Below, one piece after another: positions 15,731 to 43,884 of a stretch of 45,310 nt of DNA; positions within the stretch are counted from its first letter, which is position 1, and each line of letters starts with the position of its first letter. Made by a program: the position numbers and the translations under genes. The notes under the pieces were generated by a model, which was not told the DNA's origin, made no database searches, and worked only from the letters and a program-made list of their open reading frames with translations. Origin of the DNA: an uncultured bacterium. GTDB taxonomy: Bacteria; Hydrogenedentota; Hydrogenedentia; Hydrogenedentales; CAILVY01. The stretch is taken from NCBI GenBank assembly GCA_937951485.1, contig CALEDJ010000015.1, positions 1-45,310 of the forward strand, in the 5' to 3' direction.

Positions 15731-15810
15731 CATTGGAACGCGCATGATGATGAATTTTACCAGTTTAATGCGGTTACTCAAACTTGACGACAACAGGTAA
15801 AGGAGTGCAC

Positions 15811-17781: not shown

Positions 17782-17830
17782 ATAAGTGCGAATTGAATCT
17801 CCCACCAGCAAAGAGGGCATACAAGTTGTC

Positions 17831-20746: not shown

Positions 20747-20759
20747 TGAAGGCGAGAAT

Positions 20760-27675: not shown

Positions 27676-28173
27676 ATGCCAGTAGCATTCAGAGAAAATA
27701 TCAACCGCTGTTACCAATGCGGAAAATGCTCGACCGGATGCCCCATAGCCGAGGCCATGGACATGCTTCCGCATCAGGTGATCCATTTGCTGGCCTTGGG
27801 AATGGAAGCGCGGGTCAGACCGCTCAACACGCCGTGGCTGTGCGCCGGATGCTATACGTGCGCGGTGCGCTGTCCCAACGACATTGACGTGACGGCGGTC
27901 ATGGGCGAATTGCGCGAGAAGGCGATTGCGGCGGGTGCGCCGTGCCCTTGCCCCGATGTACTCGCATTCCACAGGAATTTCCTGCGGGATTTGAAACGTC
28001 GGGGGCGCATCCATGAACTGCGGATGATGGGCGAATACAACCTGCTGACCCGCCGCCCATTCCGGGATGCCGCGCTGGCATCGAAAATGCTGCTGAAGGG
28101 GCGGCTGCCGTTGCGTGCGCCCAGGGCGTTGCGTGGTTTCAAACGGTGGGTGCGGAAAGCGGGGCGACTGTGA
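27676..28173 (+). CDS. hdrC: heterodisulfide reductase-like subunit C
   Basis: 165 residues with two 4Fe-4S motifs typical of HdrC: CYQCGKCSTGCP (about residues 12-23) and CAGCYTCAVRCP (about 56-67), followed by a basic helical C-terminus. HdrC passes electrons between HdrA and HdrB. It shares GTGA with hdrB. With hdrB, hdrA, mvhD, metV and metF it forms a set as in acetogens, where HdrABC-MvhD accompanies MetFV methylene-THF reductase. Confidence 0.93.
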   Translation: MPVAFRENINRCYQCGKCSTGCPIAEAMDMLPHQVIHLLALGMEARVRPLNTPWLCAGCYTCAVRCPNDIDVTAVMGELREKAIAAGAPCPCPDVLAFHRNFLRDLKRRGRIHELRMMGEYNLLTRRPFRDAALASKMLLKGRLPLRAPRALRGFKRWVRKAGRL

Positions 28174-29102
28174 AAAAGGCGACGGGACTATATCCGGGGT
28201 GCAGCCTGGAAGGAACTTCCAAGGCTTTCCGCACCAGCCTGCGCAGCGTGTTGCGGAGGCTCGATGCGCAGTGCGAGCCGTTGCGTGATTGGAACTGCTG
28301 TGGGGCGAGTTCGGCCCATGCCATGGACCATGAATTGTACCTGGCCTTGAGCGCGCGGAACCTGGCGCAGGCGCGAGACCAGGGCTACGAGGAAATCATT
28401 GCGCCGTGCGCCGCATGTTATCACCGGCTGGTTTGCGCGGAGATGGAACTGGCCCGGCATCCCGAAACGCTCGCGGCGGTCAACGCCCGGACCGGCCTGA
28501 ACTACGGCGGCGGAATTGCGGTGCTGAACATGCTCGATTACTTTACGGACCGGGTGGGCCTTTCCGCCATCGGCGAACAGGTCAGGCAACCCCTGAAAGG
28601 CCTGCGGGTCGCCTGTTACTACGGCTGCTTGAACAGCCGGATACCCCATGCCGCGGCCACGTCGGGGCCGCCAGACGCTCCCGGGGGCGCCACCCGCAGT
28701 GAATATCCGATGTCCATGGACCACATTGTTGCGGCATTGGGCGCGCAGCCGCTGGATTGGTCCTATAAGACCGAATGCTGCGGAGCCAGTTTGTTTGTAA
28801 CGGCATCGTCGGTTTCGGCGCGGCTTGTAGGGCACATTCTGAAAGATGCGGTGGCGGCGGGCGCGGATTGCATCAGCGTGGCCTGTCCAATGTGCCAAAA
28901 CAACCTCGATACCAAACAGGACGCGATACGCGCCGCCTTTGGCATCGGCCGGCCCATGCCGGTCCTGTTCATTACGCAGTTGATGGGGCTGGCTTTCGGC
29001 GTGTCGGCCGCTGAGTTGAGGATTGGAGATGCCCTTGTGCCGTTCCAGTGGCGCGTAGACAAGGGCGGCGCGGCGGCGGAGGTGACGGCATGTCCGGCAT
29101 GA
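28170..29102 (+). CDS. hdrB: heterodisulfide reductase-like subunit B
   Basis: 310 residues from the GTG at 28170 (overlapping the hdrC stop); a GTG at 28146 is a less likely alternative. Two CCG-type domains carry the cysteines of the noncubane 4Fe-4S clusters: YPGCSLEG, WNCCGASSAHAMD and CAACYHRLVC in the first; YYGCLN, ECCGASL and CPMCQNNLD in the second. The family role is two-electron chemistry on a disulfide-like substrate; here, in a methylene-THF context, the acceptor is unknown. It overlaps hdrA by 13 bases. Confidence 0.93.
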   Translation: MKKATGLYPGCSLEGTSKAFRTSLRSVLRRLDAQCEPLRDWNCCGASSAHAMDHELYLALSARNLAQARDQGYEEIIAPCAACYHRLVCAEMELARHPETLAAVNARTGLNYGGGIAVLNMLDYFTDRVGLSAIGEQVRQPLKGLRVACYYGCLNSRIPHAAATSGPPDAPGGATRSEYPMSMDHIVAALGAQPLDWSYKTECCGASLFVTASSVSARLVGHILKDAVAAGADCISVACPMCQNNLDTKQDAIRAAFGIGRPMPVLFITQLMGLAFGVSAAELRIGDALVPFQWRVDKGGAAAEVTACPA

Positions 29103-32100
29103 ACAACGGCGCTCCGGTCGGAGCGGTGCTGGTGCTCGGCGGCGGCATTGCGGGCATGCAGGCGGCGCTGGATTGCGCCAACTCCGGCTTCAAGGTGTAC
29201 CTGGTGGAACAGCAGGCGTCCATCGGCGGCAACATGGCGCGCCTGGACAAGACATTCCCGACCAATGACTGCGCGATGTGCATGATTTCGCCAAAACTGG
29301 TCGAGACCGGACGCCATCTCAATATCGAAATCATCGCAAACGCGGACCTGAAGGCGGTGGCGGGCACGCCCGGTCGTTTTCAGGCAACCATCAAGAAGCG
29401 TGCCCGGTATGTGGATGAGAACAAATGCAACGGGTGCGGGGATTGCGAACGCGCCTGCCCCGTGACCTGCAGGGATGCGTTCAATGGCGACCTCGGAGAG
29501 CGGCACGCTATCCATCGGTTGTATCCGCAGGCGATCCCCAACGTATATGCCATTTCCAAGGCAGGCGCACTGCCGCCATGCCGGGGCGTCTGCCCGGCGG
29601 GCGTGAATGCCCAGGGCTATGTGGCCCTGATCGCCAAGGGCAAATTCCTGGAATCGCTGGATGTGGTCCGCGAACGCATGCCCTTTGCGGGTATCTGTGG
29701 TCGCGTGTGCCATCATCCCTGCGAAACCCAGTGCAATCGCGCGAAAGTGGACGAGCCGATCGCCGTCCGCCACCTGAAGCGTTTTGTCGCCGATTATGAG
29801 TGGTCGCTGATAAAAACGGGCCAGTCCATCGCGCGCGCGCCCAGCGAAGCGCCTGTGGCCGAACCGCAGCGCTATCAGGAACGCGTGGCCGTCGTGGGCG
29901 GCGGCCCCGCCGGGATGACCTGCGCCAACGATCTGGCCAAGATGGGCTATGCCGTCACCGTTTTCGAGGCGGCGGAACAACTGGGCGGCATGATGCGCCA
30001 GGGGATTCCCGCCTACCGGCTGCCGCGTGAGGTGCTTGACCACGAGATCGCGCTCATCACCGGCCAAGGCATTGACGTGCGCACCAACCAGGCATTGGGC
30101 CGCGATTTCACCCTGTCAGACCTCCGGGCGCAGGGCTATGCCTGCACTTTTGTGGCCACCGGCGCGCACCTGCCCAAACGCATTCCGCTAGAAGGCAGCG
30201 ACGCCGTCGGCGTCCTGTACGGGACATCCTTTTTGCGCGAGGTCAACGTGGGACAAGCCCCGCGCCTGGGCAAGCGCATCGCGGTGATCGGCGGCGGCAA
30301 TGTCGCGATTGACGCGGCGCGCTGCGCCCTGCGCGAAAGCCCTGACAGCGCGGTGGCGCTGTATTGCCTGGAAGCGCGTGGGGAAATGCCCGCGCATGAG
30401 TGGGAGATACAGGAAGCGCTGGAGGAGGGCATCGCCATCCATCCGTCCTGGGGGCCGGGGCGCATTCTTGTCAGGAACGGCGCAGTGCGTGGGTTGGAAC
30501 TCGTGAGGTGTCTGTGCGTCTTTGATGAAAACAGGCAATTCAACCCGAAGTTTGACCGGGCAGAGACGCAACAGGTCACGGCGGACACGATTATTCTGGC
30601 GGTGGGCCAGGTTTGCGACCTGTCCTTTGTGGACGGGCATGTGCAAACGAAGCATGGACTGATAGCCGTGGACCGGATCACCCTCGAAACCTCGATGAAG
30701 GGCGTGTTTGCGGGGGGCGACAACGTGCTGGGGCCGGCATCGCTGGTGCAAGCCGTCGAGCAGGGGCACCGCGCCGCCGAGTCCATGCACCGTTTCATGC
30801 GCGGGCTTGACCTGCGTGAAGGCCGGGAAGCGGTCGAACGTAGCGCGGAATTCGCCGCCCCCCCCGCTGAGACGCCGGTGGTTCCCGCCAGGCGGATCGC
30901 CATTCCCACAGCCTCCCCGGAAGAACGGAAGCGGTCTTTTCTGGAGATGGAACACGGTTACACCCCGGAGATGGCGATGGCGGAAGCGCAGCGTTGCCTG
31001 AACTGCGGCATTTGCTCCCAGTGCAACGAATGCGTCCGGGTCTGCAAGGCCCATGCGATAGACCATGCCATGCGCGACCAGGACCTGACGCTGGAGGTCG
31101 GCGCTGTCATCGTGACCAACGGATACGATCTTTTTGACCCGCGTATCAAGGCCGAGTACGGGTTTGGCCGCTATCCCAACGTGATCACGAGCATGCAATT
31201 CGAGCGCATCCTGAGCGCGTCCGGGCCATACCAGGGGCACGTGCGACGTCCCGGCGACGGCAAGACGCCCAGGAAGGTCGCGTGGATTCAGTGCGTCGGA
31301 TCACGCGATACAACGCTGGGCAGGAACTACTGCTCTTCCGTTTGCTGCATGTACGCCACGAAAGAGGCGATCATCGCGAAAGAACACGAAAAGGACCTGG
31401 AGCCGACCATTTTCTTCATTGACCTCCGCGCTTTCGGCAAAGGGTATGAGGAATTCTACAACCGCGCCAAATCCCAATACGGGGTGCGGTATGTGCGCAG
31501 CCAGGTCTCCTCGCTCAAGGAGAATCCTGAGAACAAGAACATCATTATCCGGTATGTGGGGGAATCCGAGGGCCGCATACGCATTGTCGAGGAGGAATTC
31601 GATCTGGTGGTGTTGTCCGTGGGGATGACGGCGCGCCCGGACACCGCGGTGCTGACGCAAACCCTCGGCATCTCCTGCAACGAATACGGCTTTGCTCGCG
31701 GTTCGCAGGCGTTGCCGCTGCTGTCGGACAGGGAGGGGATTTATCTGTGCGGGACGGTGAGCGGCCCGAAGGACATTCCGGAGACGGTCATGGAAAGCAG
31801 CGCGGCGGCGGCGCTGTGCGGACAGTTGCTGGGCCGCGCGCGCGGGACGCGGGTGCGCATCAAGGAGTATCCCGCGGAGCGCGAGGTGGCGGGCGAAGCG
31901 CCGCGAATCGGCGTTTTCATCTGCCATTGCGGCACAAACATCGCCTCGGTGGTGGATGTCGCGGCCGTGGCCGAATATGTGAAAAGCATCCCCGGCCTGA
32001 CCCATGCGGAGCATACCCTGTACGCCTGCTCCCAAGACACCCAGGAACGGATCAAGGGCATCATTCAAGAGAAAAGGCTGAATCGCGTCATCGTGGCTTC

Positions 32101-33625
32101 CTGCACACCGCGCACCCATGAGCCGCTGTTCCAGGAAACCCTGCGCGAGGCGGGACTGAACAAATATCTCTTCGAGATGGCGGATATCCGGGAGCAATGC
32201 TCGTGGGTCCATCAAGGCGAATCCGTTCGGGCCACGGAAAAGGCCAAGGCGCTGGTACGCGGCAGCATTGGCAAAGCCAGAAACCTGGAGCCCCTGAAAT
32301 TCAATCGCGTGGGCGTCACGCGATGCGCGTTGGTTGTCGGCGGCGGCATCGCAGGCTTGACTGCCGCGCATTCGCTGGCGCGGCAGGGCTTTTCCGTGCA
32401 CCTGGTGGAGAAATCCGGCACGCTGGGAGGCCAGTTACGCAAAGTCCGCCGCAGTCTCGAAGGCTATGATTGGCAACGACACCTGGAGAACCTTATCGCG
32501 CAGGTGCAAGCCGACGAATCCATCACTGTGCACCTGAATTCCGAGATCGCCGAATGCAACGGCTTTGTCGGCAACTTCACCACCCGCCTCCAGGGGGCGA
32601 GCAACGCGACGATTAATCACGGCGTGACGCTGGTCGCGACCGGCGCCGCCGAGTTTCAGCCCGACGGATTCCTGTATGGCGGGAGTCCGCGCGTCATGAC
32701 GCAGCAATCTTTGGAGGAAATGCTTCATGGGGGAAACGGTTTGCGCGGGTCATCGGGGCACGCGGAACGCCCGCCGGAATCGGTGGTCATGATTCAGTGC
32801 GTGGGGAGCCGGGACGAAAAGCGGCCTTATTGTTCGCGGGTCTGCTGCGGCGCGGCGGTGAAAAACGCCCTTGCCGTTAAAGAGAAATATCCCGACACCC
32901 AGGTGTACGTGCTGTACCGGGATATGCGCACCTATCAGTACAGGGAAGAATACTACTGGCAGGCGCGTGACCGGGGAGTCGTTTTCATCCACTTTCCTGA
33001 CGAGGAATACCCCGAAGTCGGCCAGGAAGGGGATCGCCTGAGGGTTTCGGTGAGGGACACCGCCTTGGGCGAACCCCTGACGCTGCCCGCGGATTGGGTG
33101 GTGTTGAGCACGGCTGTTGTGCCGGACCGAGCCAGCAACGGGCGTCTAGCCGAACTCCTGAAGATTCCCCTGAATGATCATGGCTTTTTCATGGAGGCGC
33201 ACATCAAATTGCGGCCCGTTGACTTTGCGAATGAGGGCATATTTGTGTGCGGGCTGGCGCACTCGCCGAAATACACGGAGGAAAACATCTCCCAGGCGCT
33301 GGCGGCGGCGGGACGCGCCGCCTGCATCCTGTCCCGGAATTACCTGGAAGTGGGCGGCGTAATTTCTCATGTCAACCAGAACAAGTGCGCCGCGTGTCTG
33401 ACTTGCGTGCGGGAATGCGTTTACCAAGCCCCGTTCATCAATGCCGAGGGCAAGGCCGAGATCGAAGAAGCGAAATGCCAGGGCTGCGGCAACTGCGCGG
33501 CGGCATGCCCTGCCAAGGCAATCCAGTTGCAGGCGTTTACGGACGCCCAGGAACAGGCGTTGGTGCGCAGTCTTCTCAATGAAACGGCGGCGGAAGCGCA
33601 ACAAATGGCGCTGGCGCGGGAGTAG
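29090..33625 (+). CDS. hdrA: giant HdrA with inserted GltD/NfnB module and second HdrA half
   Basis: 1511 residues (perfect GGAGGTGA before ATG 29090). Layout: HdrA N-terminal FAD domain (VLVLGGGIAGMQAAL, residues 13-27) with CAMCMISPKL; a ferredoxin site CNGCGDCERACP (113-124); then an inserted GltD/NfnB-type module, with Cys-rich CRGVCPAGVNAQGY and CGRVCHHPCETQC (about 164-215), FAD site VAVVGGGPAGM (about 266) and NAD(P) site IAVIGGGNVAIDAA (about 402); then HdrA resumes at CLNCGICSQCNECVRVC (about 636) through IQCVGSRD and SVCCMYATKEA. From about 938 a second HdrA begins (IGVFICHCG, YACSQDTQERI, ASCTPRTHEP, VVGGGIAGLTAAH near 1082) and ends in two 4Fe-4S motifs. Probably the flavin-based bifurcating core, with an added NAD(P)H entry point. 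Ordinary HdrA is about 650 residues. Confidence 0.93.
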   Translation: MSGMNNGAPVGAVLVLGGGIAGMQAALDCANSGFKVYLVEQQASIGGNMARLDKTFPTNDCAMCMISPKLVETGRHLNIEIIANADLKAVAGTPGRFQATIKKRARYVDENKCNGCGDCERACPVTCRDAFNGDLGERHAIHRLYPQAIPNVYAISKAGALPPCRGVCPAGVNAQGYVALIAKGKFLESLDVVRERMPFAGICGRVCHHPCETQCNRAKVDEPIAVRHLKRFVADYEWSLIKTGQSIARAPSEAPVAEPQRYQERVAVVGGGPAGMTCANDLAKMGYAVTVFEAAEQLGGMMRQGIPAYRLPREVLDHEIALITGQGIDVRTNQALGRDFTLSDLRAQGYACTFVATGAHLPKRIPLEGSDAVGVLYGTSFLREVNVGQAPRLGKRIAVIGGGNVAIDAARCALRESPDSAVALYCLEARGEMPAHEWEIQEALEEGIAIHPSWGPGRILVRNGAVRGLELVRCLCVFDENRQFNPKFDRAETQQVTADTIILAVGQVCDLSFVDGHVQTKHGLIAVDRITLETSMKGVFAGGDNVLGPASLVQAVEQGHRAAESMHRFMRGLDLREGREAVERSAEFAAPPAETPVVPARRIAIPTASPEERKRSFLEMEHGYTPEMAMAEAQRCLNCGICSQCNECVRVCKAHAIDHAMRDQDLTLEVGAVIVTNGYDLFDPRIKAEYGFGRYPNVITSMQFERILSASGPYQGHVRRPGDGKTPRKVAWIQCVGSRDTTLGRNYCSSVCCMYATKEAIIAKEHEKDLEPTIFFIDLRAFGKGYEEFYNRAKSQYGVRYVRSQVSSLKENPENKNIIIRYVGESEGRIRIVEEEFDLVVLSVGMTARPDTAVLTQTLGISCNEYGFARGSQALPLLSDREGIYLCGTVSGPKDIPETVMESSAAAALCGQLLGRARGTRVRIKEYPAEREVAGEAPRIGVFICHCGTNIASVVDVAAVAEYVKSIPGLTHAEHTLYACSQDTQERIKGIIQEKRLNRVIVASCTPRTHEPLFQETLREAGLNKYLFEMADIREQCSWVHQGESVRATEKAKALVRGSIGKARNLEPLKFNRVGVTRCALVVGGGIAGLTAAHSLARQGFSVHLVEKSGTLGGQLRKVRRSLEGYDWQRHLENLIAQVQADESITVHLNSEIAECNGFVGNFTTRLQGASNATINHGVTLVATGAAEFQPDGFLYGGSPRVMTQQSLEEMLHGGNGLRGSSGHAERPPESVVMIQCVGSRDEKRPYCSRVCCGAAVKNALAVKEKYPDTQVYVLYRDMRTYQYREEYYWQARDRGVVFIHFPDEEYPEVGQEGDRLRVSVRDTALGEPLTLPADWVVLSTAVVPDRASNGRLAELLKIPLNDHGFFMEAHIKLRPVDFANEGIFVCGLAHSPKYTEENISQALAAAGRAACILSRNYLEVGGVISHVNQNKCAACLTCVRECVYQAPFINAEGKAEIEEAKCQGCGNCAAACPAKAIQLQAFTDAQEQALVRSLLNETAAEAQQMALARE

Positions 33626-33629
33626 GGCA

Positions 33630-34112
33630 ATGAGCACGGAAACAATTGCAATGCCGGCGGAGACAGCCGAAACGGACGCGTTGAGGATCATCGCGTTCTG
33701 TTGTCATTATTGCGCGTTTACGGCGGCGGACCTTGCCGGGACCATGCGCCGGCAATACCCGCCCAACATCCGCATTGTCCGGTTCCCATGCACGGGACGT
33801 CTGGAGACCAACACAATCCTGCAGGCCTTTCTCGATGGGGCGGACGGCGTACTGGTGGCGGGATGCGAGCCGGGCGGTTGCCATTTCCTCAAAGGGAATC
33901 TGCGCGCGGCCAAGCGGGTCGAACACTGCCGGAGGCTGCTGGAGCAGGCCGGTGTATCGCCGGAACGGCTTGAAATGCGGCATATCGCGGCGTCGCAGGG
34001 GCCGCTGTTCGCCGAAACGGCCAGGCAGTTTACGGAAAAGATTCGCATGATCAAGGAACAGGCCCGACGCGGGACAGCCCCCTCCGACGAATGCCTTGGA
34101 GACGAGCCATGA
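33630..34112 (+). CDS. mvhD: MvhD-like [2Fe-2S] subunit
   Basis: 160 residues (GGGAGTAGGG upstream). Typical MvhD/FrhD cysteines: FCCHYCAFTAAD near residue 24, RFPCTGRLE near 53, and AGCEPGGCHFLKGN near 80. In methanogens MvhD links hydrogenase to HdrA; in acetogens and sulfate reducers it links other donors to Hdr. It stands between hdrA and metV, with an ATGA overlap to metV, so it probably connects the Hdr core with the MetFV reductase here. Confidence 0.93.
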   Translation: MSTETIAMPAETAETDALRIIAFCCHYCAFTAADLAGTMRRQYPPNIRIVRFPCTGRLETNTILQAFLDGADGVLVAGCEPGGCHFLKGNLRAAKRVEHCRRLLEQAGVSPERLEMRHIAASQGPLFAETARQFTEKIRMIKEQARRGTAPSDECLGDEP

Positions 34113-34783
34113 TTGTAGCCGAACAGAAGCCCTTTGAGGATATTTACAGTTACGCCAAGAGGCATCGGCGCGTGTTGTTGCTGGGCTGCGGCACCTGCGT
34201 GACGGTGTGCATGGCCGGCGGCGAAAAGGAAGTGGGCATCCTGGCCTCGCTGGTCCGCCTCGCCGCCCGCGAACGCAATGACGACATCACGGTGGATGAG
34301 CACACCATCACGCGGCAGTGCGACGCGGAGTTTTTCGATGAGACGACCGCCCGGAAAGCCGCCGACGCCGAGGCCGTCATCTCGATGGGCTGCGGCGTGG
34401 GCGTGCAGTTCTGCGCACAACGATTCCCCGACAAAATCGTGTACCCCGCCCTGAACACCAAGTTCTACGGCGCCACAATCGAGCAAGGGGTGTGGGCGGA
34501 ACGTTGCGCGGGTTGCGGCGAATGCGTGCTGGCGGATTTCGGCGGCATATGCCCCGTCGCGCGGTGCTCCAAGAGCCTGTTGAACGGCCCCTGCGGCGGT
34601 TCGCAAGACGGCCGATGCGAGGTGGACCCGGAGCGTGTCGAGTGCGCCTGGCAACTCATTTACGAGCGAATGGAGGCGATGGGCCGCCTTGAGGAATTGG
34701 AGAAGATACAGCCGTTCAAGGACTGGTCGCAGCACCGCGACGGCGGCCCAAGAACCATCACAAGGGAAGAAGTGCGGCTATGA
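34109..34783 (+). CDS. metV: methylene-tetrahydrofolate reductase C-terminal-domain protein MetV
   Basis: 224 residues from the ATG at 34109 in ATGA overlap. Cysteine-rich zinc/iron-sulfur protein: GCGTCVTVC near residue 27, GCGVGVQFC near 95, and a C-terminal CAGCGECVLADFGGICPVAR (about 136-155) and GPCGGSQDGRCEV (about 165-177), the last being the MetV-typical NGPCGG..G.CE motif. It partners MetF in acetogens and other Wood-Ljungdahl bacteria and is required for activity. Coupled to metF by a second ATGA. Confidence 0.93.
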   Translation: MIVAEQKPFEDIYSYAKRHRRVLLLGCGTCVTVCMAGGEKEVGILASLVRLAARERNDDITVDEHTITRQCDAEFFDETTARKAADAEAVISMGCGVGVQFCAQRFPDKIVYPALNTKFYGATIEQGVWAERCAGCGECVLADFGGICPVARCSKSLLNGPCGGSQDGRCEVDPERVECAWQLIYERMEAMGRLEELEKIQPFKDWSQHRDGGPRTITREEVRL

Positions 34784-35835
34784 ACACCACCATGCTGAAA
34801 GCCGGAAGCCGGTTGGAGCGGATATTGCGCTCGGGGCGCCCCGTCGTCACCGCAGAATTAGGGCCGCCCAAGAGCGCTGACACGGATCTCATCCGCAGAA
34901 AGGCCGGATACCTGCGGGGCGTGGTTGATGCCGCCAATATCACGGACAACCAGACTGCAATCGTGCGCATGTCGTCCATTGGGGCCGCTCTGATCGCGAT
35001 GCAGGAGGGCCTCGAACCGGTCATCCAGATCACATGCCGTGACCGCAACCGCTTGGCCGTTCAGAGCGACGTCTTGGGGGCCTATGCCCTGGGTATTCGC
35101 AATGTCCTGTGCCTGACCGGCGACCACCAGAAATTCGGCAACCATCCTGCGGCGAAAAATGTGTTCGACATGGACTCCATCCAGCTGGTGGCCATGCTGA
35201 GAGCCATGCGGGATGAAAAAGTCTTTGCCTGCGGCGATGAAATCCGCAACTCGAAAAAGGCGCCCGTCGTCGAGCCAAGAATGTTCATCGGCGCTGCCGC
35301 CAATCCCTTTGGCGATCCCTTCCCCTTCCGGGTCGCGCGCCTGGCCAAAAAGGTCAATGCCGGGGCCGATTTCATTCAGACGCAGTGCATTTACGACATG
35401 AAACGGTTCCGGCAGTGGATGCAGCAGGTGTGTGACCGGGGACTCCATGAAAGGGTTTACATTCTGGCCGGCATCACTCCCCTGAAGTCACTGCGAATGG
35501 CGGAGCACATGCGCGACAATGTCGCGGGGTTGACCGTGCCCGAAGAGATCATTGAACGACTGCGCGGCGCGGAAAATGCCGCCGAGGAAGGCGAGCGAAT
35601 CGCCGTCGAGCAGATTCAGGAATTGCTCCAGATTCCAGGTGTGCACGGCGTGCATATCATGGCGATTGAAAGCGAACACATAGTACCCGATCTGCTGAAG
35701 AAAGCGGGGCTGTTGCCGCGCCCGGTCGTGGCAGACCCTTTGCATGACGCAGTGACGTCCGGCCCCGAAATGCTGCGCGATTCCGTAAGCGGCGTTGCGG
35801 AGAATCGCAACCGGGCCGCGCAACCCGTCGGATAA
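34780..35835 (+). CDS. metF: methylenetetrahydrofolate reductase
   Basis: 351 residues, starting in ATGA overlap with metV. TIM-barrel MetF: VVTAELGPPKSADT (residues 22-35) with the catalytic-region Glu, ITCRDRNRLAVQSD (about 84-97), LTGDHQKFG (about 111-119), a GAAANPFG motif (about 172) and AGADFIQTQCIYDM near 202. Reduces methylene-THF to methyl-THF using flavin; in this operon the electrons probably come through MetV and the Hdr-MvhD complex rather than directly from NADH. Last gene of the unit; about 80 nt later the third sigma-54 promoter begins the next unit. Confidence 0.96.
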   Translation: MNTTMLKAGSRLERILRSGRPVVTAELGPPKSADTDLIRRKAGYLRGVVDAANITDNQTAIVRMSSIGAALIAMQEGLEPVIQITCRDRNRLAVQSDVLGAYALGIRNVLCLTGDHQKFGNHPAAKNVFDMDSIQLVAMLRAMRDEKVFACGDEIRNSKKAPVVEPRMFIGAAANPFGDPFPFRVARLAKKVNAGADFIQTQCIYDMKRFRQWMQQVCDRGLHERVYILAGITPLKSLRMAEHMRDNVAGLTVPEEIIERLRGAENAAEEGERIAVEQIQELLQIPGVHGVHIMAIESEHIVPDLLKKAGLLPRPVVADPLHDAVTSGPEMLRDSVSGVAENRNRAAQPVG

Positions 35836-36077: not shown

Positions 36078-36770
36078 ATGGTTATCAGCATGAGATCATT
36101 GCTGGGGCACCGGGTTCGGTGCAGTGATGGATATGTGGCCAGGATTTCCGACCTCCATCTCTACAACGGGGATTGGCGAGCGCAGCAAGTGGTATTAAGC
36201 GTGCCGACCCAACCCTGGCGCAAGACAGTGGTGAAAACAGAGAAGTTCACCGCGATCGACTGGACGAAACAGAATTTCGCCATAGCGTGTACGCGAGGGG
36301 ATGTCGAGCGGGCCGACTGCATTGAGGACAATCCCCCCATTGATTGGATTGCCGAGCAGAACGCCCTCAATTTCAACGTATGCGCAACGCATTGGTCGCC
36401 TTGGTCCGCATTTCCGCAAGACGTTGTCCCAAATGTTTCCGATAAGGGTCCGCAACTGTACAGTCTGCGACACCTCTTGCGTTATTCCGTTCAAGGGCGT
36501 GACGGCCAGTTCATCGGGAAAGTTTTCGACTTCTGCATGGAACCGAAGGGCTGGGGGGTTTCGAGCATTACAGTTCGCGTGGCTGAGTCGGGAAGCATCA
36601 AGTGTATTGCCCTGGACATCGGCAACGTATCGTCTGTGGATTTTGAGCGCCGCGTCATCGCGCTCAATTTGAACAAGGAGGCCGTGGTCAAGGCGGAGTC
36701 TTTCACGACCTTCCATGAAAGCGGCGTGCGTGCGTTCGCAAGCAGGGTGTGTGCGCGTCTGACCGGCTGA
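36078..36770 (+). CDS. double PRC-barrel domain protein
   Basis: 230 residues (AGGGAG about 12 nt upstream). Two PRC-barrel beta domains: residues 1-80 (SLLGHRVRCSDGYVARISDL, then WRAQQVVLSV) and about 130-215 (SLRHLLRYSVQGRDGQFIGK, then VFDFCMEPKGWGVSSITVRV). PRC-barrels serve as RNA-processing (RimM), photosynthetic reaction-centre or stress-related modules; function here is unknown. No signal peptide or membrane helix. As first gene behind a sigma-54 promoter and ahead of formate dehydrogenase genes, it may help to assemble or regulate that complex; this is a guess. Confidence 0.85.
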   Translation: MVISMRSLLGHRVRCSDGYVARISDLHLYNGDWRAQQVVLSVPTQPWRKTVVKTEKFTAIDWTKQNFAIACTRGDVERADCIEDNPPIDWIAEQNALNFNVCATHWSPWSAFPQDVVPNVSDKGPQLYSLRHLLRYSVQGRDGQFIGKVFDFCMEPKGWGVSSITVRVAESGSIKCIALDIGNVSSVDFERRVIALNLNKEAVVKAESFTTFHESGVRAFASRVCARLTG

Positions 36771-36881: not shown

Positions 36882-37394
36882 ATGGCCGTAGCGCTGGAGA
36901 TTGACCTTGCGCCGGTAGAGGAAATTCTGGAGAAGAGCGCGGCGTCGCGGAACGGGGATGACGAGGAGTTCTGTTCCGGGGACATCATCTCCATCCTGCA
37001 GGAGATACAGCGGATTTACGGTTATCTCCCGTTTGAGGCGCTACGGCGGGTCAGTCAGCGCACCGGCGTACCCGAGAGCCGCATCCAGGGAGTGGTGACA
37101 TTCTATGCCCAGTTCCATCGAGAGCCGCGCGGCCGCCACAGGCTGACCCTTTGCTGCGGCACCTCGTGCCACGTGCGGGGCGGCAACAAACTGTTGGATG
37201 CCGTCAAGAAAGTGCTTGACCTCGAACCCGGCAGCACGTCGGCGGATTCCCAAGTTACATTGGAGACGGCCGCGTGCCTCGGCGCCTGTGCGCTGTCGCC
37301 GGTCATGGTCATCAACGGCAAGTACTATGGCAAGTTGACCCCGCGCAAGGGCGAGCGACTCGTACGGATGATGGCGCGGGAAGAACAGACATGA
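36882..37394 (+). CDS. NuoE-like [2Fe-2S] subunit of the formate dehydrogenase complex
   Basis: 170 residues (AAGGAGAACAACCA before the ATG). A four-helix N-terminus (SILQEIQRIYGYLP) is followed by a thioredoxin-like domain with the [2Fe-2S] ligands in CCGTSCHVRGG (C-x4-C) and CLGACALSP (C-x3-C). It shares ATGA with the NuoF-GltD fusion and so probably delivers electrons to it. It is a paralogue of the 18346-18846 product, with clearly different sequence. Confidence 0.94.
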   Translation: MAVALEIDLAPVEEILEKSAASRNGDDEEFCSGDIISILQEIQRIYGYLPFEALRRVSQRTGVPESRIQGVVTFYAQFHREPRGRHRLTLCCGTSCHVRGGNKLLDAVKKVLDLEPGSTSADSQVTLETAACLGACALSPVMVINGKYYGKLTPRKGERLVRMMAREEQT

Positions 37395-40300
37395 AAAGAC
37401 TGGGCACCGTCGCCGAATTGCATGCCTGGAGAGAACGCATCCGCGCCAATGTAAGGAAGGGGGGTCACACCATCGCGGTATGCGGCACCGGATGCGATGC
37501 GGTGGGAGCCTCGGAAGTGGCGGAGGCCCTCGATCGGGCGATTGCACAACGGGGGCTGGAGCGGTCAGTCCTGGTGAAGCGCACCGGCTGTCATGGCTTT
37601 TGTGAACAAGGGCCGATCGTGGTGGTGCGTCCCGGCGACATCTTCTATGCGCGGGTCGAGCCTGCGGATGCCGCGGAAATTGTGGACAAGAGCGTGGCGG
37701 GGGGGGAAATCATTGAACGCCTGTTGTACAAGGACCCTGTCACCGGGGAACGGGTGATACGGGAACAGGACATTCCTTTTTATGCCCGGCAGACCCGCGT
37801 GCTGCTGCGCGACAACAGTCGCATGGACCCGCTCTCGCTGGAGGACTACGTCGCGAACGACGGGTATGCGGCGCTCGCCAAAGCGCTGAGCGAAATGACG
37901 CCCGACCAGGTCATTGACGAAATCCTTGAGTCTGGGCTGAGGGGGCGCGGCGGCGCCGGATTTCCGACGGGCGTGAAATGGCGCTTTTGCCGGGAAGCGC
38001 CGGGCGAATGCAAAGTGATCGTGTGCAATGCCGACGAGGGCGACCCGGGCGCGTTCATGGACCGCAGCCTCCTGGAAGGCGCGCCGCATGCAATTCTCGA
38101 GGGCATGTGCATCGCGGCCTATGCGATTGGGGCGCGCCGGGGCTTCGTTTATGTCCGGGCCGAATACCCCCTCGCCGTGCGCCACACGCGCATCGCCATC
38201 GAGCAGGCGCAACAGGCGGGATTGCTGGGCGACAGGATTCTGGGGACCGGTTTTCGGCTTCATCTCAGTGTGCGCGAAGGCGCCGGCGCTTTCGTGTGCG
38301 GCGAAGAAACAGCGCTGATCGCTTCCCTCGAGGGGCGGCGCGGCACGCCGAGGACCCGGCCCCCCTTTCCCGCGCGCCAGGGATACCGGGGGCAACCGAC
38401 GACCATCAATAACGTCGAGACACTGGCCAATGTCCCGCTGATCCTGCGACATGGGAAGGACTGGTACCGTTCCATCGGGACCGACGCCAGCAAGGGCACC
38501 AAGATATTCGCCCTCGCGGGCAAAGTGAACAACACCGGCCTGGTCGAAGCGCCGATGGGCGCGACCCTGAGACAGATCATTTTCGATATCGGCGGGGGCA
38601 TCCCCCGGAAGCGCCGCGTCAAAGCGGTCCAGATGGGCGGTCCCTCGGGTGGCTGTGTGCCGGCCCAATTCCTGGATCTGCCGATTGACTACGAATCCAT
38701 GAAGGAGATTGGGGCTATCATGGGGTCCGGCGGCCTCATCGTCATGGATGAATTGACGTGCATCGTTGACATCGCCCGGTTCTTCATGGAGTTCGTGCAA
38801 AACGAGTCCTGCGGAAAATGTGTACCGTGTCGCATCGGCACCCGCCATCTCCTTGACCTGTTGACCCGCATCTGCGAAGGTCAGGGCCAGGAGGGCGACA
38901 TCGAGCGGCTCGAAGAACTCGCCCGGCTGGTCAAGGCGGGTTCGCTGTGCGGGCTGGGGCAGACCGCACCGAATCCGGTGCTCTCAACGCTGCGCTATTT
39001 CCGCGAAGAGTATGAGGAACACATCCGGCAACGGCATTGCCGGGCTGCGGCCTGCGAAGCCCTGGTCGAAACGCCATGCAGTCACGCGTGCCCCGCCGGT
39101 GTGAATGTCCCCCATTACATCGGACTCATCGCGGAGGGAAGAGAAAACGATGCCGTAAACGTGGTGCGGCGCCGGAATCCCTTTGTGTCGGTGTGCGGGC
39201 GGGTATGCGATGCGCCCTGTGAAACGCGCTGCCGCCGCGTTGATCTGGACGAGCCGCTGGCCATCCGGGCGCTCAAGCGTTATGCCGGCGACCACAATGA
39301 CAACGGAAGAGCGACACTCACGCGTCCGGTTTCGGGGAAAGCGGAAGTGGCCATTATCGGCAGCGGTCCCGCAGGACTGGCATGCGCCTATTTTCTGGCG
39401 CTGCTGCAGCGGTGCTCAACGGTTTTCGAGGCGCTGCCGATTCCCGGGGGCATGCTGGCCGTGGGCATTCCCGAGTTCCGCCTTCCCAAGGCAGCACTTC
39501 AGGCCGACATTGATTTCATCCTGTCGCACGGCGTGGACCTGCGTACCAACACGCGCATCGGCAAAGCCGACGCGCTTCTGAGCCAAGGCTATCGCGCCGT
39601 GTTTGTCGCCACGGGGGCTCAGACCGGCCAGCCATTGAACATTGAAGGGGAGCGGAGCGCGGGGGTGATTGATGCATTGAGCCTGCTGCGGCGCCGCGCG
39701 CTGGGCGAACCGTGTCATTGCGGGAAGATCGTGGCGGTGGTTGGTGGCGGCAACGCGGCGGTGGACGCTGCGCGGTCGGCGCTGCGTCTGGGTGCCGAAA
39801 CGGTTTACATCCTGTATCGTCGGACGCGGGAGGAAATGCCCGCCTATGAGGAGGAAGTGGAGGCCGGACTTGCGGAAGGACTGGAACTGATGGAACTGGT
39901 GGCGCCGAAGCGCATCCATACAGCAGACGGCAGGGTGTCAGGGATCGAACTGATCAAGATGCGCCTCGGAGAGGCGGACTCCGGCGGACGCCGCCGCCCC
40001 ATCCCTGTCGAAGGCAGTGAATTCGTGCTGCCATGCGACATGGTGGTTCCCGCCATCGGTCAACAGCCGTCCCTGGAGCCGGTGAATCACCTGGTTGAAC
40101 GGACTGCTTCGGGGGCGGTGCGCGTGGACGCCCGCACATGCGTGACATCCGTGGCGCGGATCTTCGCCGGAGGCGATTGCATTTCCGGCGGCGGCACCGT
40201 CATCGAAGCCATCGCGGCGGGACAAAGGACGGCCGTGGCGATAGACCGCCTGCTGGGCGGGTCGGGAGTGCTGCCCGAAAACACCGGCGGCAGCCTGTGG

Positions 40301-40495
40301 CGCCCCGCCGCCGAACAAATGGCCGCCGCGTCCTCTCGCTGCAAAGAAGACATGCTTCCGGTCGAACACCGCCGGAACGGATTCGCGGAGGTGGTCGCCG
40401 GCCTGGGACCGCTGCATGCGCGGCAGGAAGCGCAACGCTGCATGCGTTGCGACCTGGAAAGAAGGCACCGGCGCCCCGTGAAACAGGAAAGGTAG
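37391..40495 (+). CDS. NuoF-like flavoprotein fused to a GltD/NfnB-like NAD(P)H oxidoreductase
   Basis: 1034 residues from the ATG at 37391 (ATGA overlap). N-terminal thioredoxin-like [2Fe-2S] domain (CGTGCDAVGA, RTGCHGFCEQGP). NuoF core: FMN motif GLRGRGGAGFPTGVKW (about 184-199), CNADEGDPGAFMDR, GAGAFVCGEETALIASLEGR (about 298), and the cluster ESCGKCVPCRIG (about 472). Instead of the usual ferredoxin tail it continues into a GltD/NfnB-like half: CSHACPAGVNVPHYIGLIAE (about 562), CGRVCDAPCETRC, FAD site VAIIGSGPAGLACAY (about 654), NAD(P) site VAVVGGGNAAVDAARSAL (about 780), and GGDCISGGGTVIEAIAAGQR near 925. One polypeptide therefore has two flavin and two nucleotide sites, a bifurcation- or transhydrogenase-like plan. 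It is followed after 3 bp by the formate dehydrogenase. Confidence 0.93.
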   Translation: MKRLGTVAELHAWRERIRANVRKGGHTIAVCGTGCDAVGASEVAEALDRAIAQRGLERSVLVKRTGCHGFCEQGPIVVVRPGDIFYARVEPADAAEIVDKSVAGGEIIERLLYKDPVTGERVIREQDIPFYARQTRVLLRDNSRMDPLSLEDYVANDGYAALAKALSEMTPDQVIDEILESGLRGRGGAGFPTGVKWRFCREAPGECKVIVCNADEGDPGAFMDRSLLEGAPHAILEGMCIAAYAIGARRGFVYVRAEYPLAVRHTRIAIEQAQQAGLLGDRILGTGFRLHLSVREGAGAFVCGEETALIASLEGRRGTPRTRPPFPARQGYRGQPTTINNVETLANVPLILRHGKDWYRSIGTDASKGTKIFALAGKVNNTGLVEAPMGATLRQIIFDIGGGIPRKRRVKAVQMGGPSGGCVPAQFLDLPIDYESMKEIGAIMGSGGLIVMDELTCIVDIARFFMEFVQNESCGKCVPCRIGTRHLLDLLTRICEGQGQEGDIERLEELARLVKAGSLCGLGQTAPNPVLSTLRYFREEYEEHIRQRHCRAAACEALVETPCSHACPAGVNVPHYIGLIAEGRENDAVNVVRRRNPFVSVCGRVCDAPCETRCRRVDLDEPLAIRALKRYAGDHNDNGRATLTRPVSGKAEVAIIGSGPAGLACAYFLALLQRCSTVFEALPIPGGMLAVGIPEFRLPKAALQADIDFILSHGVDLRTNTRIGKADALLSQGYRAVFVATGAQTGQPLNIEGERSAGVIDALSLLRRRALGEPCHCGKIVAVVGGGNAAVDAARSALRLGAETVYILYRRTREEMPAYEEEVEAGLAEGLELMELVAPKRIHTADGRVSGIELIKMRLGEADSGGRRRPIPVEGSEFVLPCDMVVPAIGQQPSLEPVNHLVERTASGAVRVDARTCVTSVARIFAGGDCISGGGTVIEAIAAGQRTAVAIDRLLGGSGVLPENTGGSLWRPAAEQMAAASSRCKEDMLPVEHRRNGFAEVVAGLGPLHARQEAQRCMRCDLERRHRRPVKQER

Positions 40496-40498
40496 GGG

Positions 40499-43207
40499 AT
40501 GACCTCGTTTCCAATTCATATAGACGGCCGTGAGGTTGTCGCGCGGACGGGCGACACAGTGCTCGATGTGGCCCTGGCGCACGGCATCGCGATTCCGCAT
40601 CTCTGCTATGAGCCGAGGCTGACGGCGACGGCGGGGTGTCGCTTATGCGTGGTTGAACTTGCGGGGCGTCCAGGACTGCACACCGCCTGCACCTGTATCG
40701 TTGAGGAAGGCATGATTGTCCACGCCAATACGGAGGCGGTCCGGAAGGCGCGCAGGGGCATCCTAGAACTGCTGCTGAGCGAACACGATCTCCGCTGCAC
40801 CACATGCGACAAGGACGGCGACTGCCTGCTGCAGGACTATGCGTATGAGTACGGGGCAAACGAAGCCGCCTTCCCCAGGGTGGGGCTGTCGCCATACACA
40901 AGAAACTTCAGCACCGGCAATGTGGCGTTCCGATATGACCCTTCAAAATGCATCCGGTGCGAGCGGTGCGTGAAGGCCTGCGCCGAAATACAAGGGTGCC
41001 AGGCGCTGACGATGCAGGGGCGCGCGGGCAATGTGCGTGTCGCCGCCGGGCTTGATGTCGCGCTCTACGATTCCTCATGCGAGGCCTGCGGGCAATGCAT
41101 CAGTGTCTGTCCGGTGGGCGCGTTATACGAACGCAATGCGGTAGGCCGGGGCAAGGCAAAGGACTTCATCAAGACGCGCACCACCTGTCCCTACTGCGGG
41201 GTGGGCTGCCAATTGGACCTGAACGTGCATCGGAAGTCGGGGCGAATCGTGCGCGTGACGAGCGCCCCGGGCGTGACACCCAATGACGGCGCCCTGTGCG
41301 TGAAAGGGCGTTTCGGGATGGATTTCGTGGGCAGCCCCGAGCGTCTGAGCGTCCCGCTGATCAAGCAGAGCGGCGTTTTCCGGGAGGCTTCCTGGGATGA
41401 GGCGCTGGATCTGGCGGCATCCCGGTTCACGGCACTGAAGGAGCGCCACGGCCCGGACGCCCTGGCCTGTCTGAGTTCCGCCAAAACCACCAATGAAGAC
41501 AACTACATCATGCAGAAACTGGCCAGGGCCGTGTTTCAGACCAACAACATAGACCACTGCGCCCGGCTGTGTCATGCGTCCACGGTGGCTGGTCTGGCGC
41601 GCGCCTTCGGCAGCGGCGCCATGACCAACAGCATCGAGGAACTACGGCGTACGCCCCTGATTTTCGTCATTGGCTCCAACACCACGGAATGCCATCCGGT
41701 GATCGGCATCTTCATCCGGCAGGCGGTGATGTCGGGCAATACGACGCTGATCGTGGCGGACCCGCGGCGGATTCCCCTCGCCAGCATCGCCCACGTTCAT
41801 CTGCGGCATCGGCCGGGCACAGACGTCGCCCTTATCAACGCTTTTCTCAACGTAATCCTGGAGGAGGGTCTGGAAGACCGCGACTTCATTGCGCAGCATA
41901 CCGAGGGCTTCGATGCCATCCGCGGACGCATCGGATGGTACACGCCCGAACGCGTGGCTGCCATCACAGGGACGCCCGCGGACCAGATACGCCATGCGGC
42001 CCGGCTGTATGCCTCCGCGCCGGGGGCCGCGGTGGTCTATTCCATGGGGATCACACAGCACGTCACGGGAACCGACAACGTGCTTGCGCTGGCCAACCTG
42101 GCGATGGCGACAGGCAACGTCGGCAGGGAATGCACCGGCGTCAATCCATTGCGCGGCCAGAACAATGTGCAGGGCGCCTGCGATATGGGCGCGCTGCCCA
42201 ACATGTACCCCGGTTATCAGCCGGTCACGGACCCCGGTGCCCGGGAAAAGTTCGAGCACGCATGGCAAGTATCCCTTCCAGGCGCGCCCGGTCTGACCAT
42301 GATGGAAATGATCCGGGCCGCGCATGAAAGAACGCTCCGGGGCATGTACATCATGGGCGAAAACGGCATGCTCAGCGAACCGGACATCGGCCATGTGCGC
42401 GAAGGACTTGAATCGCTTGATTTTCTCGTCGTCCAGGACATCTTTCTTACGGAGACCGCCCAACTGGCCGACGTCGTGTTTCCCGCGGCCTGTTTCGCGG
42501 AAAGGGCGGGCAGCGTCACCAACACCGAACGCCGGGTGCAACGCCTCGCGCCTGCGGTTGCCCCGCCCGGACAAGCCCGCGAGGACTGGCGCATCTTGTG
42601 CGAGGTAGCCACGCGCATGGGATACGCGATGTCATACCCCAGCCATGAGGCAATCACCGATGAGATAGCGTCGCTCACGCCCATATACGGCGGCATCACC
42701 CATGACCGGCTGGGCGCGCCCGGACTGCAGTGGCCTTGTCCGACACGCGATCATCCCGGCACGAAATTCCTGCATGCCGGCGGGAACTTCACGCGCGGCA
42801 AGGGAAAGTTCCACCCCGTGGACTATCTCGACCCCGCCGAGCAGCCCGACGAGGCCTTCCCCTTCATTCTGACCACCGGAAGGATTCTCGAGCATTACCA
42901 TACGGGCAGCATGAGCCGGCGCTCGCTTGTGCTGGATGACCGGGTCCCACACGGATGTCTCGAGTTGCATCCGGAGGACGCCGCCGCGCTGAACATCGAA
43001 CACAACGAGCAGGTCCGGGTGGAATCGCGGCGCGGGCGGATTGAATTGCCCGCGAATATCACGGACCGCGTGCCGCGCGGCACCTTGTTTGTGGCCTGGC
43101 ATTTTGCGGAACACCCCGCCAATGCGCTGACCATCGCCGCGCTGGACCCCGTCGCCAAAATACCCGAGTATAAAGTCGCCGCCGCGCGCGTCTGCAAGTT
43201 GACATGA
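40499..43207 (+). CDS. fdhA: formate dehydrogenase alpha subunit, Cys-type, with NuoG-like N-terminus
   Basis: 902 residues (GGAAAGG upstream). N-terminus: [2Fe-2S] site CYEPRLTATAGCRLCVVEL (about 38-56) with CTCIVEE; a His-Cys3-type cluster around LRCTTCDKDGDCLLQDYAYE (about 100); two 4Fe-4S sites, CIRCERCVKAC (about 152) and CEACGQCISVCP (about 196). The molybdopterin domain begins at CPYCGVGCQLDLNV (about 231) with its own 4Fe-4S cluster. The active-site ligand is a Cys, C358, in DHCARLCHAST (TGT at 41570-41572), where selenocysteine is common. The C-terminus has the molybdopterin-binding TGRILEHYHTGSMSRRS (about 800). Interconverts formate and CO2, probably linked to NAD(P)+ and ferredoxin through the adjacent NuoE and NuoF-GltD proteins. 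Confidence 0.95.
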   Translation: MTSFPIHIDGREVVARTGDTVLDVALAHGIAIPHLCYEPRLTATAGCRLCVVELAGRPGLHTACTCIVEEGMIVHANTEAVRKARRGILELLLSEHDLRCTTCDKDGDCLLQDYAYEYGANEAAFPRVGLSPYTRNFSTGNVAFRYDPSKCIRCERCVKACAEIQGCQALTMQGRAGNVRVAAGLDVALYDSSCEACGQCISVCPVGALYERNAVGRGKAKDFIKTRTTCPYCGVGCQLDLNVHRKSGRIVRVTSAPGVTPNDGALCVKGRFGMDFVGSPERLSVPLIKQSGVFREASWDEALDLAASRFTALKERHGPDALACLSSAKTTNEDNYIMQKLARAVFQTNNIDHCARLCHASTVAGLARAFGSGAMTNSIEELRRTPLIFVIGSNTTECHPVIGIFIRQAVMSGNTTLIVADPRRIPLASIAHVHLRHRPGTDVALINAFLNVILEEGLEDRDFIAQHTEGFDAIRGRIGWYTPERVAAITGTPADQIRHAARLYASAPGAAVVYSMGITQHVTGTDNVLALANLAMATGNVGRECTGVNPLRGQNNVQGACDMGALPNMYPGYQPVTDPGAREKFEHAWQVSLPGAPGLTMMEMIRAAHERTLRGMYIMGENGMLSEPDIGHVREGLESLDFLVVQDIFLTETAQLADVVFPAACFAERAGSVTNTERRVQRLAPAVAPPGQAREDWRILCEVATRMGYAMSYPSHEAITDEIASLTPIYGGITHDRLGAPGLQWPCPTRDHPGTKFLHAGGNFTRGKGKFHPVDYLDPAEQPDEAFPFILTTGRILEHYHTGSMSRRSLVLDDRVPHGCLELHPEDAAALNIEHNEQVRVESRRGRIELPANITDRVPRGTLFVAWHFAEHPANALTIAALDPVAKIPEYKVAAARVCKLT

Positions 43208-43884
43208 AATCATCCATCCAATCCATTCTGGGAGCGGGCGTCGTTTCAAGCGCCCCGGGCGATCCGGTCCGCCACATCGCCCCGATGCGCTTCCGCGCAA
43301 CGGCGGTGATCCTTGCCGGCGGCAACAGTTCGCGCATGGGGCGCGACAAGCGCTTTCTTCCCTTCGCCGGGCGCCCGCTTATTCAGATCATTGCCGCACA
43401 AGTACGACCGCATTTCGAGGAACTTGTGATTGCCGCAAACGATGGCTGTGCGGTCGCTGGCTGCGGGATACGTGTCGTGGCGGATGAAATCCCGGGATTG
43501 GGACCTATTGGGGGCATGGTGAGTTCCATGGCCGCATCGCACCATGACACCTGTTTCGTGCTCCCCTGCGACATGCCGCAGATTGACCTCGCGCTGATCG
43601 CGCGCCTTCTGGACAGCGCACGCCGGGGCGACTGCGCAATCCCGGTCTCCGCGGAAGGCAGGTATGAGCCGTTGTTTGCGGCCTATCGCAAGCGTGTGCT
43701 CCCATTCTTGCGGCGCGCCATCGCCTGCGGCGTGTACAAAGTCATGGACGCGCTCAGGGACTGCAAGATCGTGTCCGTGAACCTGCCAACCGCAGAGGGA
43801 CTGCAGAATCTGAACACCCTCGACGACTACCGGCGATGGCTCGATACCCAGCCTGCCGGCAATTCTTCCGGGGTGATATTCTAG
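43204..43884 (+). CDS. mobA: molybdenum cofactor guanylyltransferase
   Basis: 226 residues from the ATG at 43204 (ATGA overlap with fdhA); the conserved part begins at residue 28 (ATG 43285), so the shorter start is possible. Nucleotidyltransferase motif VILAGGNSSRMGRDKRFLPF, then GPIGGMVSS, LPCDMPQ and the C-terminal LNTLDDY. It attaches GMP to molybdopterin to make the MGD cofactor of the formate dehydrogenase encoded just upstream, so both are co-expressed. Last gene of this unit. Confidence 0.93.
   Translation: MKSSIQSILGAGVVSSAPGDPVRHIAPMRFRATAVILAGGNSSRMGRDKRFLPFAGRPLIQIIAAQVRPHFEELVIAANDGCAVAGCGIRVVADEIPGLGPIGGMVSSMAASHHDTCFVLPCDMPQIDLALIARLLDSARRGDCAIPVSAEGRYEPLFAAYRKRVLPFLRRAIACGVYKVMDALRDCKIVSVNLPTAEGLQNLNTLDDYRRWLDTQPAGNSSGVIF

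Follow-up and report, generated by a model that had tools for sequence, protein, structure and literature searches.

A NuoF-GltD Fusion Subunit Encoded with Formate Dehydrogenase in a Wood-Ljungdahl Gene Cluster of Hydrogenedentota

The NuoE, NuoF-GltD, and FdhA Genes

The DNA analyzed here is the 45,310-nucleotide stretch of contig CALEDJ010000015.1 (assembly GCA_937951485.1) from an uncultured bacterium of the phylum Hydrogenedentota, which we refer to as the window. On its plus strand lies an open reading frame (ORF) in which a NuoF-type subunit continues into a GltD/NfnB-like flavoprotein, and this NuoF-GltD fusion is encoded between a NuoE-like subunit and FdhA, the catalytic subunit of a formate dehydrogenase (FDH). 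The three genes and the domains of the fusion are as follows.

36882 to 37394, plus strand: NuoE/HydC/BfuC-type [2Fe-2S] thioredoxin-like subunit, 170 residues (PF01257, E 4.6e-45)
37391 to 40495, plus strand: NuoF-GltD fusion subunit, one ORF of 1034 residues (Pfam, AlphaFold2)
37454 to 37690, plus strand: thioredoxin-like N-terminus of NuoF, with Cys31, Cys35, Cys67, and Cys71 at the Bfu-type [2Fe-2S] position (PF01257, residues 22–100; conservation)
37925 to 38437, plus strand: domain of NuoF binding flavin mononucleotide (FMN) and NAD(H) (PF01512, E 3.8e-46; structural match to HydB/BfuB)
38768 to 39022, plus strand: NuoF [4Fe-4S] domain, Cys474/477/480/520 (PF10589, E 8.9e-36; conservation)
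39032 to 39301, plus strand: Fer4_20 part of GltD, Cys563/567/602/606/610/614, with Lys629 at 39275–39277 (PF14691, E 4.5e-20; alignment columns)
39344 to 40255, plus strand: GltD domain binding flavin adenine dinucleotide (FAD) and NADP(H) (PF07992, E 1.8e-27; solved relatives)
40439 to 40450, plus strand: C-terminal CxxC, Cys1017/Cys1020 (conserved in 98/98)
40499 to 43207, plus strand: FdhA, a NuoG-like N-terminus (residues 1–220) followed by a Mo/W-bis(pyranopterin guanine dinucleotide) formate dehydrogenase (TIGR01591, Pfam)

The fusion ORF runs from an ATG at 37391 to a stop codon at 40493–40495 with no internal stops; its start overlaps the stop codon of NuoE (37392–37394), and FdhA starts three bases 3′ of it. 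Pfam places Nuo51 FMN (residues 179–349), NADH_4Fe-4S (460–544), Fer4_20 (548–637), and Pyr_redox_2 (652–944) in this order, and an SLBB match reaches 24.9 bits against a cut-off of 27. The FAD motif GSGPAG (657–662) and the NAD(P) motif GGGNAA (785–790), the latter followed by YRRTREEMP, are both present. A preliminary description of the window had stated that NuoF, which usually ends in a ferredoxin domain or simply stops, here continues unbroken into a flavoprotein with intact FAD and NAD(P) motifs, and we agree on each of these points. The partners that it named, NuoE and a NuoG-fused FDH, are likewise seen, the former by PF01257 and the latter by its NuoG-like N-terminus and by NCBIfam TIGR01591 (Fdh-alpha), for which it scores 817 bits, above the cut-off of 666. 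The selenocysteine/cysteine (Sec/Cys) site of FdhA is Cys358-His359 (codon 41570–41572).

An assembly or sequencing error joining two adjacent genes had been raised against the fusion by the preliminary description itself. The window genome carries three full-length fusion copies, and in G009, a second genome of the phylum, a fusion 67–68% identical to that of the window again occurs with FdhA. We further examined 115 fusion loci, which had been selected for matching the fusion (L026 and L117 come from one contig), and in 115/115 a single high-scoring segment pair bridges the NuoF/GltD junction, four of these loci having one in-frame stop. Because the 68%-identical fusion accompanies FdhA in a second genome and all selected loci span the junction, assembly error and accidental gene fusion are ruled out, and NuoF-GltD is a genuine single gene. 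An AlphaFold2 model that covers the entire chain and is based on 42 fusions reaches a mean pLDDT of 88.6 and a pTM of 0.79, and its blocks at residues 521–620, through the junction, lie at pLDDT 82–93.

The first half of the model matches the bifurcating HydB/BfuB chains 9mqx_B (Z 54.9) and 7p92_B (Z 52.9), and also fits the beta chain of an NAD-dependent FDH, 6vw7 (Z 49.1). Counted over the fusions that reach a given position out of the 115 loci, Cys67 and Cys71 are kept in 105/105 and Cys35 in 78/104, the latter in 8/8 of the FDH-linked rows. The cysteines of the NuoF [4Fe-4S] domain are kept in all 114 or 115 fusions, and the domain is flanked by a hydrogenase-B-type set, Cys457/His544/Cys550/Cys555, which is nearly invariant among fusions and which we take to be zinc ligands. 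The NuoF part stops short of the C-terminal two-[4Fe-4S] domain, and Pfam finds no Fer4-pair domain in the fusion; in StnB, that C-terminal domain is described as the putative ferredoxin site (PMC10482914). As a separate observation, Gly replaces Cys35 in 25/104 fusions, a large group with L120, L121, and many of L128–L147, whose partners are mostly just a NuoG-like N-terminus and some of which carry His at the position of Lys629.

In the GltD half, Cys563, 567, 606, 610, and 614 are kept in 115/115 fusions and Cys602 in 95, and the FAD, NADP, and cluster residues are conserved across the examined fusions from many phyla. The YRR motif, which presumably reads the NADP phosphate, is retained. 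By alignment to 8oh5_C, Lys629 is the equivalent of StnC Lys170; it is Lys in 100/114 fusions, including 9/9 FDH-linked and 43/43 HydA-linked ones, the other 14 having His, Ser, Ala, or Arg. This lysine is reported to ligate the proximal cluster in StnC, where NfnB has a glutamate (PMC10482914). By sequence, the four solved chains that best match the GltD half include three of the Stn type, 9bov_A, 9n5u_A, and 8oh5_C, and the second half of the model matches 9bov_A from Caldicellulosiruptor (Z 48.6 over 450 residues at 2.0 Å) and 8oh5_C from Sporomusa (Z 46.2), whereas NfnI 5jca_L scores lower (Z 38.3). Judged by its sequence, with Lys629 in place, the GltD half belongs to the StnC type rather than the NfnB type, and its FAD is probably non-bifurcating.

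Recurrence of the Fusion and Exchange of NuoF C-Termini

By record titles, relatives of the fusion span well over ten phyla among the matches listed, a lower bound from a scan of genome contigs that took the best 80 of 582 relatives. Most relatives with a known partner are hydrogenase-linked. Among 95 fusions of at least 900 residues, an [FeFe] hydrogenase domain is encoded close to 43, an FDH close to 9, a NuoG-like protein of ~850 residues close to 7, and none of these close to 36. Eight of the nine FDH-linked loci have the site: the window, L039/L009 (G009), L074 and L143 (Planctomycetota), L075 (Chloroflexota), L079 (with a selenocysteine codon) and L113 (titled Proteobacteria), and L104 (titled Bacteroidales). 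The remaining locus, L087, is truncated ahead of the site. FDH-like partners with no visible Cys/Sec-His (L077, L088, L105, L123, L142, and L148) were left out of this count. An FDH-linked fusion unique to the lineage of the window is ruled out by those in other phyla; outside the window and G009, the FDH-linked loci are, by title, metagenome-assembled genome records, in which contamination of single contigs is possible.

Two further associations of the fusion were seen. In a third paralogue type, NuoF-GltD lies beside the ~850-residue NuoG-like protein (L038, 4885–10584; L059, 3027–10196); that of L038, a copy from the window genome itself, has an NfnA-like DHODB Fe-S domain at its end, and a separate GltD gene follows in six of seven such loci (L057, L059–L063), not in L038. 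This type may represent a NuoEF-GltD core to which an Nfn-like unit has been added. MetV/MetF genes lie beside NuoF-GltD in L076, L077, L088, and L151 (Chloroflexi, Deltaproteobacteria/Desulfobacterales, and Pirellulales records; the L088 contig has MetV only), which suggests that NuoEF-GltD is also linked to methylene-tetrahydrofolate (THF) reductase.

Within the phylum, we compared 68 genomes of one order, including the window genome (G000, 4.5 Mb, 94% complete). FdhA is found at E below 1e-150 in 8/68, and the neighborhoods of seven were compared, G056 being left out. The window genome and G009 have the fusion tail. In G054 (FdhA 68% identical) and G003 (FdhA 53%), NuoE and a 616- or 621-residue NuoF ending in Fer4 pairs precede FdhA; in G002 and G012, FdhA is followed by a 579-residue protein that matches both NuoE and NuoF; and in G026, the NuoF that precedes FdhA is truncated where the contig begins. 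On the FdhA tree, the window, G009 (both fused), and G054 (ferredoxin tail) form a trio with 100/100 support, G009 and G054 pairing inside it at 88/86, and G003 (ferredoxin tail) groups with the fused L143 at 100/100; given the starred branches, the ferredoxin-tail label must have changed at least twice. On the NuoF tree, the two ferredoxin-tail rows group with the fused L074 (97/95).

Since the FdhA groupings that mix both tails have 100/100 support, the tails vary while the FdhA background stays stable, and the C-termini of NuoF have been swapped between relatives. The swap between ferredoxin tail and GltD may have run in either direction. As same-phylum relatives pair the same FdhA with a canonical two-[4Fe-4S] NuoF tail, GltD in the window stands as the replacement of a ferredoxin port. 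A single origin of the fusion is not established by the trees: unfused NuoF rows intermingle with fused ones both in a FastTree NuoF tree, whose outgroup does not form a single clade, and in a more careful one, and support is weak for several branches.

The Wood-Ljungdahl Cluster and the Proposed NADP(H) Exit

Further features of the window bear on the pathway that FdhA may serve.

25739 to 27589, plus strand: formate-THF ligase (FTHFS; PF01268, E 2.4e-226)
27676 to 35835, plus strand: methylene-THF reductase set of HdrC-like, HdrB-like, HdrA with GltD-like insert, MvhD, MetV, and MetF (Pfam)
43204 to 43884, plus strand: MobA-like nucleotidyltransferase, overlapping the FdhA stop (PF12804, E 4.5e-38)

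On the plus strand, the order is CooS-like (15784), a NuoE/NuoF/NuoG-like set (18241–21599), a response regulator, a CbiA-type ATPase, CdhD-like, formate-THF ligase, HdrC- and HdrB-like, HdrA, MvhD, MetV, MetF, a 230-residue protein, NuoE, NuoF-GltD, FdhA, and MobA, the last of which would serve Mo-cofactor maturation. The cluster therefore covers three steps in the methyl branch of the Wood-Ljungdahl pathway, namely FDH, formate-THF ligase, which acts next after FDH, and methylene-THF reductase; in G009, an FTHFS gene follows FdhA. The 230-residue protein (36078–36770), between MetF and NuoE, has no Pfam or NCBIfam match and is presumably PRC-barrel-like. HdrA (29090–33625) carries a GltD/NfnB-like insert (Fer4_20 and Pyr_redox_2, residues 162–559) near its N-terminal ferredoxin region, so that, with NuoF-GltD, the cluster bears GltD on two different redox subunits; HdrA-NfnB proteins of a similar kind are described in ANME-1 (PMC9012536). 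The set at 15784–21599, which consists in this order of a CooS-like protein, NuoE, a canonical NuoF ending in a Fer4 pair, and a NuoG-like protein, resembles the predicted Codh-Bfu, represented by four sequences in PMC9304861.

We consider it reasonably likely that NuoE, NuoF-GltD, and FdhA make up one soluble NADP(H)-linked formate dehydrogenase/CO2 reductase that feeds the methyl branch. Electrons would pass from the formate site in FdhA through the Fe-S chain of its NuoG-like N-terminus to the FMN and clusters of NuoEF, and onward through the [4Fe-4S] clusters of the GltD part and a non-bifurcating FAD to NADP(H). Because GltD occupies the place of the ferredoxin-docking domain of HydB/StnB, the ferredoxin exit of an Fdh-Bfu-like enzyme would have been exchanged for an NADP(H) exit. 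The two nearest relatives with known biochemistry, an NADP+-reducing hydrogenase and an NADP-dependent FDH, both of Moorella thermoacetica, point to NADP(H), and the domain swap probably makes the FDH run on NADPH. Complex formation, the electron path, NADP specificity, the lack of ferredoxin use, and the direction are what we infer from these comparisons.

Several points weigh against an NADP(H)-linked enzyme of this kind. NAD(H) may still be a substrate, given the full conservation of the FMN/NAD(H) site and the retention of the N-terminal [2Fe-2S] cysteines in every FDH row long enough to include them. The potentials given in PMC13040438 are ~−432 mV for CO2/formate, ~−370 mV for NADPH, and ~−270 mV for NADH, and the reduction of CO2 by NADPH lies at best close to equilibrium, although a pull by formate-THF ligase would be plausible. 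The NuoF trees place the fusion of the window apart from the Moorella hydrogenase fusion, and the analogy is thus one of architecture; that the six-gene Moorella cluster is the purified NADP+-reducing hydrogenase is, moreover, read from the number of genes.

The conserved FMN/NAD site and cysteines, together with the retention of NuoE, are also what would be expected of a three-way formate/NAD(H)/NADP(H) enzyme, in which FMN still bifurcates or confurcates and NADP(H) takes the place of ferredoxin, as in 2 NADPH + NAD+ + CO2 → NADH + formate or in the reduction of NAD+ and NADP+ together by formate. With the potentials above, the mean of NAD and CO2/formate is ~−350 mV, so NADPH could just drive both reductions. 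If GltD sits at the low-potential port, however, the order of the ports is unfit for NADPH-driven bifurcation. Rosenbaum and Mueller, in FEBS J in 2024, reportedly found no bifurcation in the Moorella NuoF-GltD hydrogenase. That enzyme is described as NADP+-reducing (PMC13391211). On balance we regard the three-way enzyme as unlikely. A broader proposal strikes us as doubtful in turn: in a bifurcating family, an NADP(H) port could stand in for the ferredoxin port and vice versa, the same swap being repeated with hydrogenase and FDH partners, and intact FMN chemistry would couple formate/CO2, NADH, and NADPH without ferredoxin; the first reaction above would be an example, with formate in the role of reduced ferredoxin.

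A plain NAD-dependent FDH of the FdsABG type, with GltD as a vestigial or structural appendix, would agree with the closeness of FdhA and NuoF to the NAD-FDHs 7vw6, 6tg9, and 6vw7. It is difficult to reconcile with the GltD residues conserved across phyla and Lys629 in every FDH-linked row, and the Moorella NADP-FDH retains GltD and drops the FMN domain; we hold it to be quite improbable. Least credible is a four-way enzyme that also exchanges electrons with ferredoxin, as the preliminary description had it, with ferredoxin docked on GltD or FdhA: this can appeal to the ferredoxin site that NfnB-type GltD proteins are reported to bear (PMC10482914), but it finds no support here, since GltD replaces the very domain that holds the putative ferredoxin site in HydB/StnB.

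An NADP(H)-linked complex predicts the electron supply to CO2 reduction in Wood-Ljungdahl bacteria of the Hydrogenedentota and Planctomycetota. The natural pairs, with nearly the same FdhA and different C-termini, offer a clean test of what decides between ferredoxin and NADP(H), and bear on whether bifurcation survives the loss of the ferredoxin port.

Comparison with Known Systems

NfnAB differs from the window in both of its components: Lys is found instead of the NfnB-type Glu, and there is no NfnA among the genes assigned between 25739 and 43884. The Stn/NfnABC enzymes (8oh5, 9bov, 9n5u) share NuoE, a HydB-type NuoF, GltD of the same subtype, and the StnC-type lysine. In Stn, however, GltD is in the NuoG-like subunit StnC (PMC7483475, PMC10482914), NuoF keeps its ferredoxin domain, and there is no active FDH, whereas in the window GltD sits on NuoF and FdhA is without GltD by Pfam. 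The likeness to Sporomusa-type transhydrogenases noted in the preliminary description thus holds for the GltD half and fails for the subunit that carries it, which rules out membership in Stn. FdsABG and the Rhodobacter NAD-FDH (6vw7, 6tg9) share FdhA and NuoEF and are without GltD; the NuoF homologues of NAD-dependent FDHs are described as having no extra Bfu clusters (PMC9304861).

In Moorella thermoacetica DSM 21394, a run of six genes starts with four small ones, NuoE among them, and continues with a 1011-residue NuoF-GltD and a 573-residue group A [FeFe] hydrogenase; a second NuoF of this genome is 57% identical with no GltD match. The species is described as having two soluble hydrogenases, one bifurcating and one NADP+-reducing (PMC13040438, PMC11328732); the latter is hexameric by title, with six consecutive locus tags (Mothe_c19180-19230), and the purified enzyme showed an activity of 8.3 U/mg in the reduction of NADP+ by H2 and formed no H2 from NADPH (PMC13391211). 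Like the window, it combines NuoE, NuoF-GltD, and a catalytic subunit with a NuoG-like N-terminus; it differs in HydA instead of FdhA and in extra small genes, with the match of cluster to enzyme being presumptive. The NADP-dependent FDH (SfrB2 beta subunit, SfrA2/FdhF3) is described as NADPH-only (PMC13040438). A 710-residue Moorella ORF, located at the end of a contig next to where an FdhA begins, has NADH_4Fe-4S and GltD, is 39% identical to window residues 438–1020, and from its position and make-up would be SfrB2. The window thus has the feature of this NADP-specific type, a GltD-type beta subunit bearing the NADP site, and both pair the NuoF [4Fe-4S] domain and GltD with an FdhA having a NuoG-like start; the Moorella enzyme is without NuoE and without the thioredoxin-like and FMN domains of NuoF.

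The Moorella hydC-hydB-fdhA clusters (PMC11328732) were considered as carriers of the fusion and rejected: in the four regions examined, NuoF has no GltD and lies next to HydA or the start of a NuoG-like protein, with no FDH match. HydB in the genus Moorella (L184, 6291–8003, ~570 residues; also L187), beside HydA, has neither ferredoxin tail nor GltD.

We found no description of a NuoF-GltD-FdhA complex in searches limited to open PMC papers. Each half and each partner is already known: GltD serving an FDH is known from Moorella, and GltD on a HydB-type NuoF would be present in the purified hydrogenase. The electron-bifurcating formate dehydrogenase Fdh-Bfu (Carboxydothermus type 1) shares NuoE, a HydB-type NuoF, and FdhA with a NuoG N-terminus, and has the C-terminal two-[4Fe-4S] domain where the window has GltD (PMC9304861); sister complexes of this kind occur in the same phylum (L197 and L198, both with the Fer4-pair domain). 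Bfu is defined by a BfuB with FMN, SLBB, and NuoF-4Fe4S domains (IPR011538, IPR019554, IPR019575) and the ferredoxin-type IPR017896 of the C-terminal clusters (PMC9304861). In the window, the BfuC (NuoE) partner is present, the FMN and 4Fe-4S Pfam domains are clear, the SLBB match stays under its Pfam cut-off, and the ferredoxin-type domain is absent. The NuoE/NuoF-GltD/FdhA set is therefore a variant outside the published Bfu definition by one tested feature, and NuoF-GltD subunits, which recur across many phyla, fall outside it with their lack of a ferredoxin-type domain.

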